Assembly (NCBI GenBank): GCA_913057685.1
Contig: CAJXOA010000016.1
Coordinates: forward strand, 1 to 43,336
Direction of reading: 5' to 3'
Length of the DNA: 43,336 nucleotides
Origin: an uncultured Trueperaceae bacterium
GTDB lineage: Bacteria > Deinococcota > Deinococci > Deinococcales > Trueperaceae
The translations under genes were made by a program, and so were the position numbers. Shown piece by piece: positions 35,722 to 43,336 of this stretch (within the stretch, counting starts at the first letter, position 1; each line of letters starts with the position of its first letter). A model generated the notes under the pieces. That model was given only the letters and a program-made list of their open reading frames with translations, was not told the origin of the DNA and ran no database searches.

Positions 35722-36363
35722 TCAGGCCCCCTCGCCCAGCAGCTGCGCGTGCCCCCGCTCCAGCTTCGTGCGGTCCGACGGCGTCCAACCGTAGGCGGTC
35801 GCCAGCGCCTCCGCCGCGCCCTCCAGCGCCGTGCCGGCGTCGGCGGGGGCGGCCTCCGCCCACTCGAGCTCCACCTCGCGCCACGCCGCCCGCCGGTCCT
35901 GCCCCGGTTTGCGCGCCGTGACGTCGTCGAACGACAACGTCGCCACCCGCACGCCGCCGTGCAGGACCGGGAGGTCGCGGCGCTCCACGTCCAGCGACAT
36001 CACGACGTGCAGCGCCGCGGGGTCGGTCACGGTCCCGACCGCGTCCGCCAGCTCCGTCGGCCACCCCTGCGGCGCGTCGGCGTCCAGGACGACCTCGAGC
36101 TCCCCGCGGACGTGCTCGCCGTCCCGCACCGTCCCGAGCGTCTTCAGGGTCGCGACGACCCGCCCCTCCCCGGTCCGCCGCCGCAGGGCGAAGCCGACGC
36201 GCTGCAGCGACAGCCGCGGGTCGTCGTAGTAGCGGTCCTTGTGTACCGCCCGCGCGACCTCGCCGACCGTCAGCCCCCACGGCGCCAGGTGCGCGGCGAG
36301 GTCGGCGGGCTCCGGCGGGTCCCCGTCCTCGCGCAGGTACTTGCGTTCGCGTTCGGTCTTCAC
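35722..36363 (-). CDS. CYTH-domain protein
   Basis: 213 residues. The N-terminus VKTERERKYL carries the CYTH signature ExExK (E4, E6, K8). Later charged strands fit the tunnel fold: RVGFALRRRTGEGRVVATLK, RGELEVVLDAD and WREVELEWAEA. The family includes class IV adenylate cyclases, thiamine triphosphatases and inorganic polyphosphatases, so the substrate is probably a triphosphate or polyphosphate. GTG at 36363 overlaps the stop of the zincin-like gene (GTGA), so the pair is coupled. Confidence 0.88.
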   Translation of the reverse strand: MKTERERKYLREDGDPPEPADLAAHLAPWGLTVGEVARAVHKDRYYDDPRLSLQRVGFALRRRTGEGRVVATLKTLGTVRDGEHVRGELEVVLDADAPQGWPTELADAVGTVTDPAALHVVMSLDVERRDLPVLHGGVRVATLSFDDVTARKPGQDRRAAWREVELEWAEAAPADAGTALEGAAEALATAYGWTPSDRTKLERGHAQLLGEGA

Positions 36364-36848
36364 GACCCCCGCCCCAGGAGCCGCCGCCACCACGGCCGCC
36401 CTGCAGAGTCCCCGGCAGCGTCGGTGTCGGGACGGTCGAGGTCGGTGGGGGCGGCGTCGGCCGGTTCGCTGCGCGCATCGAACTGCTGGGCGTCGAGCAG
36501 GTCCTGCTCGATCAGGCGCCCGTCGCCCGCCAACGACTCGACGTGGTGCTGGAGTTCGTGGGTCAACGTCTCCCAGATCTCCTCCTCCCAGTCGAAGTCC
36601 GGATCGTTCTCGGCGATCGCGCGGAAGCTGCCCCAGTACAGCGCCACGTGGCGGCCCAACCCCGCGTCGCCGCCCAGGAAGGCGTCGGGGCCCGGGTCCA
36701 GGTACTCCCCCATGCGCCAGACGTCGTCGTAGCCCTCCTCCAGGACCTCCTGCTCGAGGGCGTGCACCCCCTGCAGGTCCCGCAGGAACCCCTCGGGGAT
36801 CTCGGCGGTCATGCGCTGCACGGTCGTGCGGAACTGGCGGTACGTCAC
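36360..36848 (-). CDS. Zincin-like metallopeptidase family protein (HExxH)
   Basis: 162 residues. ETLTHELQHHVESLAG holds the HExxH motif (H97, E98, H101), followed by an acidic helix (IEQDLLDAQQ) that may give the third ligand, as in the pfam06262 zincin-like family. No signal peptide. The C-terminal 40 residues are Asp/Ala-rich and end in a basic patch (WWRRLLGRGS). GTG at 36848 has TAGGCT six bases upstream. Peptidase activity is not proven for the family. Coupled to the CYTH gene. Confidence 0.78.
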   Translation of the reverse strand: MTYRQFRTTVQRMTAEIPEGFLRDLQGVHALEQEVLEEGYDDVWRMGEYLDPGPDAFLGGDAGLGRHVALYWGSFRAIAENDPDFDWEEEIWETLTHELQHHVESLAGDGRLIEQDLLDAQQFDARSEPADAAPTDLDRPDTDAAGDSAGRPWWRRLLGRGS

Positions 36849-36854
36849 GCGCGA

Positions 36855-36860
36855 AGCCTA
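36855..36860 (-). promoter_or_regulatory. TAGGCT -10 box before the zincin-like gene
   Basis: TAGGCT on the minus strand, six bases before GTG 36848. Confidence 0.5.
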
Positions 36861-36964
36861 CCGCCCCCCGGCGGCGGCGCGGGCCGCCCCGCCGACCGGC
36901 GCGCCCCCCGCCGCCGCGCGGCGGCGAGGACGGCCGTCCCGCGCCGGGGCGCGGGGGCGCTTGC

Positions 36965-37056
36965 TATCCTTTGCGCCACGTTCGCGTCGTCCGGGTCGCG
37001 CCGGCCGCTGCCTCCCGCACCGGCCCCGCGCCCCACGGGTAGAAAGGGACTCCGTC
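36965..37056 (+). promoter_or_regulatory. Promoter and leader of the EF-G-like gene
   Basis: TATCCT at 36965-36970 is the probable -10. It is followed by a leader of about 80 bases and AGAAAGGGA (37041-37049) as Shine-Dalgarno sequence before ATG 37057. This gene is clearly leadered, unlike many neighbours. Confidence 0.5.
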
Positions 37057-39120
37057 ATGTCCGAACTCCGCAACGTCGCCCTCCTCTCGCACAGCGGGGC
37101 GGGCAAGACCAGCCTCACCGAAGCGCTGCTGTACCGCACCGGCGTCCTGGACGCCATGGGCGCCGTCGAGGACGGCACCACCGCCAGCGACCGCAGCCCG
37201 GAGGAGACCCGCCGCAAGATCAGCATCTCCACCAGCCTCCACCCGGTCGAGTGGAAGGGGCACCGCTTCACCCTCCTCGACGCGCCCGGCTACGCCGACT
37301 TCGTCGGCGAGATCCGCGGCGCGCAGGCCGCGGCGGACGCCGCGATGATCGTGGTGAGCGCCGTGTCCGGCGTCGCGGTCGGGACCGAACGGGTGTGGAC
37401 CAGCACCTTCGAGCGGGAGCTGTCGAGCTTCGTGGTGATCAACAAGATGGACCGCGAGAACGCCGACTTCTTCCGCACCATGGCGCAGATCGAGGCGACG
37501 CTGCCCGGCACCTTCGCCGCCATCCAGGTCCCGATCGGCAAGGCCGCCGACTTCCGCGGGGTCGTCGACCTGCTCACGATGACCGCCTGGACCTGGCCGG
37601 ACGGGACGCCCGTCGAGGGCGAGATCCCGAGCGAGGTGGCGGGCGTCGCGCAGGAGTACCACGACCGCCTGGTCGAAGCGATCGTCGAGACCGACGACGA
37701 GCTGATGGCGAAGTACCTCGAGGACGTCGACATCGCCGCCGCCGACCTGCGCGACGCCTTCTTCGCCGCCGTGCGTGCCGGCGCGCTGACGCCGGTCCTG
37801 CTGGCGTCCGCGGAGAAGGCGATGGGGATCGGCCTGCTGCTGGACTTCATGGTCGAGGGCGTGCGCGGCCCCGCCGAGCACGCCCCGCTCCCGGTCGCCA
37901 CCGGCGCGTCGCCCGACCTCGGGGCGGACGCGCCGTTCCTCGCCCGCGTCGTCAAGACCGCGGTCGATCCCTACCTCGGCAAGATCTCCTACCTCCGGGT
38001 GCTGGCCGGGTCGCTGAAGGCGGGCGACACGGTGCTGGACACCTCCCGCGGCGACGGCGAGGCGGTGTCGGTCAAGCTCGCGCACCTGTACGTCCCCGAC
38101 GGCGGCGAGCTGAACGAGGTCCCGCGCCTCGAGGCCGGCGCCATCGGCGCGGTCACGAAGATCGAGGCGCTGCACACCGGCGACACGTTGGCGGCGTCCG
38201 AGCGGCCCGTCGAGCTCGCCCCGATCCGCTTCCCGCCGCCCGTGATGGCGGTCGCGCTGGAGCCGGAGACGCGCGCCGACGACGACAAGCTCGGCGACGC
38301 CCTCCACAAGCTGTTGGAGGCCGACCCCACCCTGCAGCTCGAACGCAACCCCGACACGCACGAGACCGTCCTCTGGGGCATGGGGCACGTGCACCTCGAG
38401 GTCGCCAAGAACGCCCTCAAGGACCGCTACGGCGTCGCGGTCGCGACGCACCCCCCGCGGGTCGCCTACCGCGAGACGATCCGCGGGCAGGGCGACGCGC
38501 GCTACCGCCACAAGAAGCAGACCGGGGGGGCGGGCCAGTTCGCCGAGGTCGCGCTCCGCGTCGAGCCGGCGGAGACCGGTGCGGGCCTGGTGTTCGACTG
38601 GGCGGTCGTCGGCGGGGCGATCCCCGCCGCCTTCCAGTCCAGCTGCGAGAAGGGCGTGCGCCAGGCGATGGCGCGCGGCGTGCTCGGCGGCTTCGTCACC
38701 GACGACGTGCACGTCACCGTCTACGACGGTAAGGACCACCCGGTCGACAGCAAGGACGTCGCCTTCGTCGCCGCCGCGGCGCAGGCGTTCCGCGACGCGG
38801 TCGCGCAGGCCGACCCGGTCGTGATGGAACCGGTCGCGCTCGTCAAGGTCCGCGTCCCCGACCGCTTCACCGGCGACGTCATCGGGGACCTCAACGCCCG
38901 GCGGGGCCGCATCCTCGGCATGGACAACGAGGGCGCGGTCTCCACCGTCAGCGCGCACGTCCCCGAAGCGGAGCTCGCGACGTACTCCCCGGAGCTGCGC
39001 AGCCTCACCGGCGGGCGGGGCGCCTTCTCGCGGCGGCAGGACCACTACGCCCCCGTCCCGCCGCACCTCGTCGACCGCGTCCTCGAGGCCGCCCGCACCG
39101 ACGGGGAGGCGTCCGGCTGA
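37057..39120 (+). CDS. Elongation factor G-like protein (EF-G-2 type)
   Basis: 687 residues with full EF-G layout. G1 is SHSGAGKT (11-18), G3 is DAPGYADF (75-82) and G4 NKMD (129-132), followed by domains II to V (EVALRVEPAETGAGLVFDW, RRGRILGMDNEGAVSTVSAH, LRSLTGGRGAFSRRQDHY). In canonical EF-G, G3 is DTPGH, with the histidine that positions water for GTP hydrolysis; here it is Tyr79. This DAPGY variant is known in EF-G-2-type paralogues such as the Thermus one. A second, canonical fusA should exist elsewhere. ATG at 37057 is chosen for its Shine-Dalgarno sequence; the open frame upstream is noise. Confidence 0.93.
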   Translation: MSELRNVALLSHSGAGKTSLTEALLYRTGVLDAMGAVEDGTTASDRSPEETRRKISISTSLHPVEWKGHRFTLLDAPGYADFVGEIRGAQAAADAAMIVVSAVSGVAVGTERVWTSTFERELSSFVVINKMDRENADFFRTMAQIEATLPGTFAAIQVPIGKAADFRGVVDLLTMTAWTWPDGTPVEGEIPSEVAGVAQEYHDRLVEAIVETDDELMAKYLEDVDIAAADLRDAFFAAVRAGALTPVLLASAEKAMGIGLLLDFMVEGVRGPAEHAPLPVATGASPDLGADAPFLARVVKTAVDPYLGKISYLRVLAGSLKAGDTVLDTSRGDGEAVSVKLAHLYVPDGGELNEVPRLEAGAIGAVTKIEALHTGDTLAASERPVELAPIRFPPPVMAVALEPETRADDDKLGDALHKLLEADPTLQLERNPDTHETVLWGMGHVHLEVAKNALKDRYGVAVATHPPRVAYRETIRGQGDARYRHKKQTGGAGQFAEVALRVEPAETGAGLVFDWAVVGGAIPAAFQSSCEKGVRQAMARGVLGGFVTDDVHVTVYDGKDHPVDSKDVAFVAAAAQAFRDAVAQADPVVMEPVALVKVRVPDRFTGDVIGDLNARRGRILGMDNEGAVSTVSAHVPEAELATYSPELRSLTGGRGAFSRRQDHYAPVPPHLVDRVLEAARTDGEASG

Positions 39121-39135
39121 GCGCGCGCGGTGCGG

Positions 39136-39141
39136 TAGCGT
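39136..39141 (+). promoter_or_regulatory. TAGCGT -10 box before the ABC transporter gene
   Basis: TAGCGT lies seven bases before GTG 39149, in the 28-base gap after the EF-G-like gene, so the ABC gene has its own start signal. Confidence 0.55.
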
Positions 39142-39148
39142 CGGGCCC

Positions 39149-40969
39149 GTGAAGGTCCTGCGCCAGTTCCTCGAGCTGTTGACGCCCCGCGAACGCCGCC
39201 AGGTGTGGCTGCTGCTGCCGCTGGTCGTCCTCATGGCGTTCGCCGAGGTGATCGGCATCGCGTCGGTCGTGCCGTTCCTCGAGCTCACCACCGACCGCGA
39301 GGCGGCCCGGAACAACGCGGTGCTCGCCTTCGCGTACGAGACCTTCGGGTTCGAGCAGTGGCGCTGGTTCATGGTCGCGACCGGTGCCGCGGTGATCGTG
39401 GTGCTGCTCCTCGCGAACGGCTTCCTGGCGTACGGCAACTGGATCCTGTTCCGCTTCGGCGCGATCCGCAACCACACGATCGCGCGGCGGCTGTTGATCC
39501 GCTACCTGCAGCAGCCCTACGCCTTCTTCCTGACGCGCAACACCTCGTCGCTGGCGAACAACGTCCTGCAGGAGGTGCAACAGATCATCCGCGGGGTGGT
39601 GCGGCCGGGCCTGCAGCTGGTCGCGAAGGGCTTCACGGTCCTGGCGATCCTCGGGTTGTTGGTGGTCGCCAACCCGCTCCTGGCGTTGCTCACGAGCGTC
39701 GTGCTGGGCGGCGCGTACGGCCTGATCTACCTCGTCATCCGCCGCTACGTCCGGCGCATCGGCGAGGACCGGGTGCAGGCGAACCAGGCGCGCTACCGCG
39801 CGGCGCAGGAGGCGATGGGCGGCATCAAGGACCTGCGCCTGCTGGGTCGCGAAGCGGAGATGGTCGAGCGCTTCACCGAGCCGTCGCGGCGCTTCGCGGT
39901 GTACGAAGCGAACAGCCAGGCGCTCGGGGGCCTCCCCCGGTACGTCCTCGAGGCGATCGCCTTCGGCAGCGTCGTGTTCATCACGCTGCTGTTGTTCGCG
40001 ACCGGCGCGGAGGTCGAGGAGGTCGTGCCGGTCCTCGGGCTGTACGCCTTCGCCGGCTACCGGTTGTTGCCGGCCTTGCAGGCGGTCTTCCAGGCCTCGA
40101 CGCAGATTCGCTACAGCCTCGGCGCGCTCGACGAGGTGCACGCCATGGTGCGGCGCGTCGACGCGACGGCGGCCGACCCCGACGCGTTCGAGGACCGCAC
40201 GGCGCTCGCACCGCTGCCGTTCGCCGACCGCCTCGAGGTGCGCGACGTCGCCTTCGCCTACGAGGACGGCACGGAGGTCCTGCAGGGCATCGACCTGGAG
40301 ATCCCGGTGCGCTCGCACGTCGCCTTCGTCGGCACGACGGGGGCCGGCAAGACCACCCTGGTCGACGTGCTGCTCGGGCTGTTGACCCCGAGCGCGGGAA
40401 CCGTGACGGTCGACGACGTCGCCCTGGACGCGGATACCGTCCCCCGCTGGCAGGCGAACGTCGGGTACGTCCCGCAATCGATCTACCTGACCGACGACAC
40501 CGTCGCGCGCAACATCGCGCTGGGCCTGCCCGACGAGCGCATCGACATGGACGCCGTGCGCCGCGCGGCGGCGATGGCGCAACTCGATCGGTTCGTGGAG
40601 ACCGAGTTGCGCGACGGCTACGCGACGGTCGTCGGGGAGCGCGGCGTGCGCCTCTCGGGCGGGCAACGCCAACGCATCGGCATCGCCCGCGCGCTCTACC
40701 ACGACCCCGAGGTCCTCGTCTTCGACGAGGCCACCAGCGCCCTGGACGGCGCGACCGAGCGGGCGGTGTTCGAGGCGATCCGGGCGCTCACCGGCCGCAA
40801 GACGATCCTGTCGATCGCCCACCGGCTCGCCACCATCCAGGACGCCGACACGATCTTCGTGCTCGATGGGGGACGGATCGTGGCGCGCGGCCCGTACGAC
40901 GCGGTCTACGCCGACAGCGACGTCTTCCGCCGGATGGCGGAGGGCGGGGGGCTTCCCGCGCGTCCCTAG
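39149..40969 (+). CDS. ABC transporter, fused permease and ATPase (PglK/MsbA-like flippase)
   Basis: 606 residues. The N-terminal half has about six helices and opens with LLTPRERRQVWLLLPLVVLM followed by FAEVIGIASVVPFLEL, very like PglK-type lipid-linked oligosaccharide flippases. The ATPase domain has Walker A GTTGAGKT (395-402), Q443, signature LSGGQ (502-506), Walker B VLVFDEATS (D526, E527) and H558, all intact. It probably moves a lipid-linked glycan or lipid across the membrane. It is separate from the polysaccharide locus, which already has a Wzx flippase. Stop is four bases from the stop of the convergent HemC-like gene. Confidence 0.9.
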   Translation: MKVLRQFLELLTPRERRQVWLLLPLVVLMAFAEVIGIASVVPFLELTTDREAARNNAVLAFAYETFGFEQWRWFMVATGAAVIVVLLLANGFLAYGNWILFRFGAIRNHTIARRLLIRYLQQPYAFFLTRNTSSLANNVLQEVQQIIRGVVRPGLQLVAKGFTVLAILGLLVVANPLLALLTSVVLGGAYGLIYLVIRRYVRRIGEDRVQANQARYRAAQEAMGGIKDLRLLGREAEMVERFTEPSRRFAVYEANSQALGGLPRYVLEAIAFGSVVFITLLLFATGAEVEEVVPVLGLYAFAGYRLLPALQAVFQASTQIRYSLGALDEVHAMVRRVDATAADPDAFEDRTALAPLPFADRLEVRDVAFAYEDGTEVLQGIDLEIPVRSHVAFVGTTGAGKTTLVDVLLGLLTPSAGTVTVDDVALDADTVPRWQANVGYVPQSIYLTDDTVARNIALGLPDERIDMDAVRRAAAMAQLDRFVETELRDGYATVVGERGVRLSGGQRQRIGIARALYHDPEVLVFDEATSALDGATERAVFEAIRALTGRKTILSIAHRLATIQDADTIFVLDGGRIVARGPYDAVYADSDVFRRMAEGGGLPARP

Positions 40970-40973
40970 GCGC

Positions 40974-41813
40974 TCAGCCGAGCGCCTCGAGTTGCGCGGC
41001 GACGTCCTGCGCCAACTCCGCTCCGAGCGACGCCGCTTCGCTCGCGTCCCCCGACGTGCGGGCCTGCAGGATCCGCCCGCCGGCGGCGACCGCGCCGAAC
41101 AACTCCAGGTCCCCGTCGTCGCTGACCGTCGCGAGCGCGCCGACCGGGTGGTCGGGCAGCGCCGCGGCGAAGGCGCGTTCGGCACGCACGCGGTCGAACG
41201 ACGGCCGGTGGTGCAGGGTGTACGCCAGCTCCGCCGCCTGGTCGTCGTCCTCGCGCACGAGGACCGCGAGCGCCCCCTGGCCGGGGGCGGGCGGCACGAC
41301 CTCCGGGTCGAGCAGGGCGTCGATGCGGTTGCCGTGATCCAGCACCCGCAACGTCGCGGCGGGCAGCAGCAGGGCGTGCACCTCCTCGCGCGTGAGGCGC
41401 GCGAGGGCGTCGTCCAGGGTGGCGTCGAGCGTCTCGATCGCGAGGTCGGGCCGCAGCGCCCGCACCAGCGCCTCGTCGCGCCCGGCGCGGGTCGCGATCC
41501 GCATGCCGGCCTCGAGGTCCTCGAACGCCCGACCGTTGCGGCTCACGAGGGCGCACCGGGCCTCCTGCCGGCGGGCGACGGCGGCGAGGACGACGCCGTC
41601 GGGCAGGTCCGCGGGCAGTCGGTCGACCGCACCGACCGCGAGGCCGATGCGCTCCTCGAGGAGCGCGGTCGGTAGCGTGCCCGGGTCGTCGCCGGGGATC
41701 GTGCGTTGCACGATCGGGACGTCCGGCCATTCGTCGGTGAGTTCGGCGAGGACCGCGCGGGCCTGGCGGAGCGCCTCCGCGCCGTCGCGGTTCCCCATCA
41801 CGATGCGGGGCAT
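40974..41813 (-). CDS. Hydroxymethylbilane synthase (HemC) homologue lacking key residues
   Basis: 279 residues, slightly shorter than HemC (about 310). The fold is recognisable: PPAPGQGALAVLVREDD, FDRVRAERAFAAAL and RIATRAGRDEAL correspond to HemC segments. The essential parts are changed. IAVHSMKD, with catalytic Asp84, reads LAVGAVDR (58-65). The dipyrromethane-binding GGCQVPIGA reads LPDHPVGA (219-226), with no cysteine. GTSSLRRQ is also altered. It should not bind the cofactor or polymerise porphobilinogen. The frame is unbroken and ordinary in codon use, so it looks like a conserved, repurposed protein. ATG 41813 has TACAAC (near match to the -10 box) six bases upstream. Confidence 0.75.
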   Translation of the reverse strand: MPRIVMGNRDGAEALRQARAVLAELTDEWPDVPIVQRTIPGDDPGTLPTALLEERIGLAVGAVDRLPADLPDGVVLAAVARRQEARCALVSRNGRAFEDLEAGMRIATRAGRDEALVRALRPDLAIETLDATLDDALARLTREEVHALLLPAATLRVLDHGNRIDALLDPEVVPPAPGQGALAVLVREDDDQAAELAYTLHHRPSFDRVRAERAFAAALPDHPVGALATVSDDGDLELFGAVAAGGRILQARTSGDASEAASLGAELAQDVAAQLEALG

Positions 41814-41862
41814 GGCGCGGTTGTATCACAGCCGTTGCAGGGGTGTCCCGACGGCGTTCCGC

Positions 41863-41900
41863 GCCCGCCCGGCCCCCCGCGGGACGGGGGCCGGGTGGGC
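41863..41900 (-). terminator. Terminator hairpin after metK
   Basis: 15-bp stem (41863-41877 with 41886-41900, one G-T pair) and an 8-base loop, 23 bases past the metK stop and before the HemC-like gene. No T-run. Confidence 0.65.
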
Positions 41901-41922
41901 CGTGGGGGTGCGGCGGGTCGCC

Positions 41923-43098
<1,176 letters not shown>

Positions 43099-43217
43099 GG
43101 GGGTGCCTCCTGGTGGGCGGACGGCCCGGATGTCGCGAGACGGTACCCCCACCCCCAGGGTCCATGGAGTGGACCCCGCGACGTTCGGGAGGCCCGCCGT
43201 CCGGTCCGCCCCGCGGG

Positions 43218-43223
43218 TACCCT
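43218..43223 (+). promoter_or_regulatory. TACCCT -10 box before the GNAT gene
   Basis: TACCCT lies six bases before GTG 43230 (nine before ATG 43233). No Shine-Dalgarno sequence is seen. Confidence 0.55.
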
Positions 43224-43229
43224 CGCGGC

Positions 43230-43336
43230 GTGATGGTTCCGCCCACCGGCCACGCCCCGTTCGCCATCCGGCCCGCACGGCCGGACGACGCACCGGCGCT
43301 CGCGGCGTTGATGGACGGCATCTACGCCGAGCGGCG
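43230..43336 (+). CDS. GNAT-family N-acetyltransferase, N-terminus only
   Basis: 35 codons before the window ends. [20 protein letters not shown] followed by IYAER is the typical first strand and helix of a GNAT acetyltransferase (iRpA...D...l..l...). Start is GTG 43230 or ATG 43233; the box upstream fits either. Divergent from metK. Substrate unknown. Confidence 0.7.

Follow-up and report, generated by a model that had tools for sequence, protein, structure and literature searches.

A HemC-fold protein lacking catalytic residues, encoded behind metK in Trueperaceae, probably serves a new function

What does a hydroxymethylbilane synthase (HemC) do once the residues that make it an enzyme are gone? 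The protein is regarded as having catalysis for its sole task, carried out with a unique cofactor that it assembles itself. A gene that raises this question lies in the window, by which we mean the whole 43,336-nucleotide stretch of DNA analyzed here, taken from a 2.29 Mb, 98% complete genome of the Trueperaceae (Deinococcota). The original prediction, made from the letters alone, was that the gene encodes a repurposed pseudo-enzyme, perhaps binding a tetrapyrrole precursor or acting as a regulator.

40974–41813, minus strand: the pseudo-hemC gene, encoding 279 amino acids with a HemC fold and without the catalytic residues

The open reading frame runs for 279 codons from an ATG start, and its relationship to HemC is evident. 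The protein is about 30% identical to the E. coli and B. megaterium enzymes, with which it shares the PAPGQGA hinge and the AER helix, and all real matches in a PDB search are porphobilinogen deaminases. Pfam PF01379 matches residues 47–194 (1.4e-29) and PF03900 matches weakly; against the NCBIfam hemC model (TIGR00212, EC 2.5.1.61) the protein scores 135 bits, under the curated cut-off of 164. An AlphaFold2 prediction built from 23 orthologues (mean pLDDT 94.9, pTM 0.91) places HemC crystal structures at the top of a Foldseek search (bacterial TM 0.84–0.90, E to 3e-33), so that the three-domain fold accompanies the sequence homology and is, in the model, kept. The protein is a descendant of the Thermus-type hydroxymethylbilane synthase of the Deinococcota.

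HemC itself resembles the periplasmic-type binding proteins in its two-domain clamshell, and Type II solute-binding proteins (PqqT, TauA, SsuA) follow HemC among the Foldseek matches (E ~1e-9). Their TM scores reach only 0.4–0.5, however, and the window protein differs from them in possessing HemC domain 3 and in showing no export signal by eye; its N-terminus, MPRIVMGNRDG, appears cytosolic. No Rfam element was found within 39000–43336 of the window, and there was no defence-family match.

The differences from HemC are concentrated where catalysis takes place. Residues are numbered below, where so stated, after E. coli HemC, whose sequence is identical to that of PDB 1ah5.

41619–41633, minus strand: GAVDR in place of HSMKD, residues 61–65; D84 (E. 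coli) gone in 27/27 orthologues, and the K83 position D or E in 27/27
41475–41480, minus strand: R112-D113, corresponding to E. coli R131-R132; R131 kept, R132 changed to D in 27/27 orthologues
41163–41207, minus strand: the best-conserved stretch of the family, residues 203–217, in the helix joining domains 1 and 3
41136–41159, minus strand: LPDHPVGA in place of the cofactor-cysteine turn GGCQVPIG, residues 219–226; the turn is shortened in most orthologues and has no cysteine

The two substitutions first read from the letters, GAVDR for HSMKD and LPDHPVGA for the cysteine loop, thus proved exact when aligned to E. coli HemC, and the alignment of close relatives that had been suggested as a check shows the altered sites to be conserved. 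The window protein has D64 and R65 at the K83 and D84 positions, neither of which retains the E. coli residue in any orthologue (0/27), and the Cys242 position never holds cysteine, being proline or a different residue in the window protein and all 27. As C242, D84 and K83 are lost in every one of these full-length Trueperaceae copies, chance or sequencing error is excluded. The window protein further lacks S13, the part of the active-site loop that extends to F62 (deleted in 26 of the 27 copies), R132, R149, R155 and R176, retaining only R11 and R131 from the HemC set of cofactor and substrate arginines (R11, R131, R132, R149, R155, R176). R149, R155, R176 and T127 are not conserved across the 27 copies. 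In E. coli HemC, either of the mutations R131L and R132L is enough to prevent binding of the cofactor, R149H, R155H and R176H are detrimental, and D84E lowers activity (PMC3945110); D84 is a key residue of the enzyme (PMC3945110; PMC8561815). Missing from the copy are the residues with which HemC holds its dipyrromethane cofactor and polymerizes porphobilinogen.

The overall HemC fold would also suit a hydroxymethylbilane synthase that is still active with another anchor residue, as might be imagined if a replacement cysteine held the cofactor. We find this scarcely credible: no position in the family has a conserved cysteine, many of the proteins contain no cysteine at all, the sole one of the window protein (C87) is common only to its nearest relative, D84, K83, R132, R149 and R155 are not conserved, and most genomes also encode a complete canonical HemC. 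We also considered and rejected a displaced cofactor cysteine; a cysteine near the site occurs only in some Meiothermus copies, two positions along. What the family has instead is an invariant signature of its own, in which R131 is kept and Lys83 and Arg132 are charge-reversed (K83 to D/E and R132 to D, each in 27/27).

The genome of the window does contain the second, complete hemC that was to be looked for. It lies elsewhere (C44:14220-14840, minus strand), carries the motifs VHSFKD and DAGCQLPFGA, and scores 236 bits against TIGR00212. The gene adjoins hemA in a hemA-hemC-hemB cluster, with hemB, hemE and hemH on the same contig. This canonical hemC can serve as the cell's HemC, so pseudo-hemC is not needed for this genome to make haem.

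We surveyed 111 genomes of the phylum, 39 of them Trueperaceae. HemC is found in nearly all and the Thermus type in most, and the two types show a complementary pattern: genomes in which canonical HemC was found have a Thermus-type copy that is either degenerate or missing, and those with an intact Thermus-type copy yielded no canonical HemC. Groups f2, f4 and g30/g31 have the Thermus type alone, with Cys242 and Asp84 present in the rows examined (the name Thermus for g30 is our reading of its sequences and match pattern). Full-length degenerate copies occur in 27 of the 39 Trueperaceae genomes, most of which also encode canonical HemC, and an extra fragment occurs in G089. The orthologue in Truepera radiovictrix (G108) is at 384775–385620, minus strand. 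The gene is gone from several lineages of the family (G074, G097/G098, G101, G106, G110), so it is dispensable there. Degenerate copies are also present in the Meiothermus-like genera g27–g29 and in two f3 genomes, usually with a canonical one. A contig search with the single window protein found no relatives, and one with the alignment found 19 loci, all in Trueperaceae or Deinococcota records.

The pattern of change in the degenerate copy indicates purifying selection. Nei-Gojobori dN/dS is 0.13–0.33 in seven pairs, 39 columns are invariant among 23 family sequences, and the reading frame is intact in 27/27 (the TAA listed for G096 falls outside that frame's protein). Sequencing error, assembly artefact and pseudogene are rejected, since 27 orthologues have intact frames and dN/dS is below 0.35; the original prediction had likewise judged recent decay unlikely from the intact frame. 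Slower decay, with an old hemC drifting as a relic after its replacement by the canonical gene, would account for the loss of nearly all catalytic residues and for the absence of the gene from several relatives. The selection just described, the newly fixed residues that functional HemC does not have, and the fixed place of the gene behind metK all speak against drift, and we disfavour this explanation as very improbable.

The gene tree groups the degenerate copies of the Trueperaceae in a single clade (100/100), whose neighbours are the f3 copies and then the functional f2 enzymes, and it sets the Meiothermus degenerate copies in a separate clade (100/100) beside functional Thermus-type enzymes. 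An AU test did not reject a single clade of all degenerate copies (p-AU 0.084). Because the tree separates the two groups, we favour, without regarding it as proven, two separate losses of catalysis.

The Meiothermus copy (e.g., in M. ruber, G031) is similar to that of the Trueperaceae in being a Thermus-type HemC with an altered cysteine turn that coexists with a canonical HemC and, in the genus Meiothermus, in having its catalytic Asp replaced by Tyr or His. It differs in keeping R132 and mostly K83, and in retaining the old genomic site: in Thermus-like and Meiothermus-like genomes alike, this hemC lineage is followed downstream by a Fur-family gene. Copies of this type (L076 of M. ruber and L030) score 249–251 bits against TIGR00212, over the cut-off, and would therefore be named as active hydroxymethylbilane synthase despite missing Asp84 or the cofactor Cys, a naming that misleads pathway reconstruction. 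As a separate observation, in two Thermus-like genomes of different species, G052 and G061 (L139, L140), a frameshift interrupts the only hemC within the active-site loop, in both cases at one shared G-run (five G rather than six); either sequencing error or slippage on the run would produce it.

A constraint on what the Trueperaceae protein does comes from one genus, g9. In its six genomes (G090–G095), one of which is a single 2.92-Mb contig (G093), we found no match for HemA, HemB, HemE or canonical HemC, and the degenerate HemC is kept in all six. As all six encode haem-copper oxidases, they probably import haem, and from their gene content they look like respiring haem auxotrophs. The f3 genome G008 likewise keeps its degenerate copy with HemB, HemE and canonical HemC not found, which is weaker evidence because it comes from one draft genome of 91% completeness. 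Retention in g9 means that the function of the protein needs neither porphobilinogen nor its polymer. The haem-copper oxidase genes of g9 number 2–5 per genome, and ferrochelatase was found in three of the six genomes and not in the other three (loci L014, L021, L023, L024, L028, L029, L135).

The two parts of the original prediction fare differently. The repurposed pseudo-enzyme is supported by the conservation of the altered sites, by purifying selection, by the lack of a conserved replacement cysteine and by the presence of a canonical hemC; the suggested binding of a tetrapyrrole precursor, or a haem-regulatory role, is unsupported, since the gene is kept in genomes with no means of making porphobilinogen. 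A regulator, chaperone or sensor of haem synthesis would bind porphobilinogen, hydroxymethylbilane or the cofactor and would control or assist canonical HemC or HemA, as its descent from HemC, the co-occurrence of canonical hemC in most Trueperaceae and the Fur-family gene adjoining the Meiothermus-like copy might lead one to expect. We consider such a role decidedly unlikely, given that the lowest dN/dS (0.134), and hence the strongest purifying selection measured, is that of a pair within g9, that the carboxylate-binding residues are removed or charge-reversed, and that the gene lies outside the hem cluster.

A carrier that binds finished haem or porphyrin, made or imported, and passes it to haem proteins such as terminal oxidases would not depend on the pathway. 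Haem-copper oxidases occur in all Trueperaceae searched, including the pathway-lacking genus, which means that every genome with the gene has a use for haem, and in G100 the gene sits between metK and a thioredoxin-like/CcdA-like pair. This neighbourhood is not general, however; the protein shows no recognizable haem motif, with H202 as the family's one invariant histidine and no cysteine conserved, and some lineages have dropped the gene while continuing to use haem. We therefore regard a haem carrier as unlikely.

The best explanation, to which we assign a probability of roughly 0.7, is a neofunctionalized, non-catalytic binding protein of the HemC fold. Freed from catalysis, the protein would have become a cytosolic binding or adaptor protein, with binding by the two-domain clamshell of HemC, whose cleft is altered at the two cofactor-carboxylate positions given above. 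The strongly conserved hinge and the link between domains 1 and 3 may transmit binding to a partner; mean column identity is 0.90 in the domain 1–3 helix (residues 202–217), 0.79 in the hinge and lowest, at 0.58, in domain 2. As this least conserved domain forms one wall of the cleft, a protein–protein role fits as well as ligand binding. The job would be independent of porphobilinogen because apparent haem-auxotroph relatives keep the gene.

That the protein has taken on a new job is, in our view, probable. Most of the Trueperaceae keep a dead HemC, whose catalytic role had apparently passed to a second HemC, and keep it even past the loss of the pathway. This is a clear example of how an enzyme of essential metabolism can be turned into something else, with functional cousins of the Thermus type for comparison. 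We found no report of a HemC pseudo-enzyme in the open-access literature searched.

The position of the gene offers a lead on what the job might be.

41923–43098, minus strand: metK (S-adenosylmethionine synthetase), the next gene upstream of pseudo-hemC and of like orientation at each of the 27 orthologous loci

The gap between metK and pseudo-hemC is 13–163 bp in 26 Trueperaceae loci and 383 bp in G100, where the order is metK, pseudo-hemC, a thioredoxin-like gene and a ccdA-like gene. In G101 and G110, which are without pseudo-hemC, metK is followed directly by thioredoxin-like and ccdA-like genes, an order that points to loss of pseudo-hemC in place. Because the gene always sits behind metK, a role is best sought first in the methionine/SAM cycle, as a functional lead only, since adjacency alone shows no shared function. 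A more specific proposal would make the protein the founder of a new class of cytosolic binding proteins tied to the SAM/methionine cycle and expressed with metK. Its cleft would have changed from anion-binding to cation-compatible through the K83 and R132 replacements, the protein might sense SAM or some other cation or else act on MetK, and a separate, similar loss would have occurred in Meiothermus beside the Fur-family regulator. We hold this proposal to be doubtful.

Other genes are conserved around the same locus. Beside metK in Trueperaceae, upstream and on the opposite strand, there is a conserved NYN-domain protein, mostly with a GNAT acetyltransferase (L063–L069, L108–L109). Several Trueperaceae also conserve, close to metK, an EF-G-like GTPase gene (a 769-aa open reading frame at 36811–39120 of the window, plus strand), which is adjoined by a CYTH-domain gene (35722–36393, minus strand).
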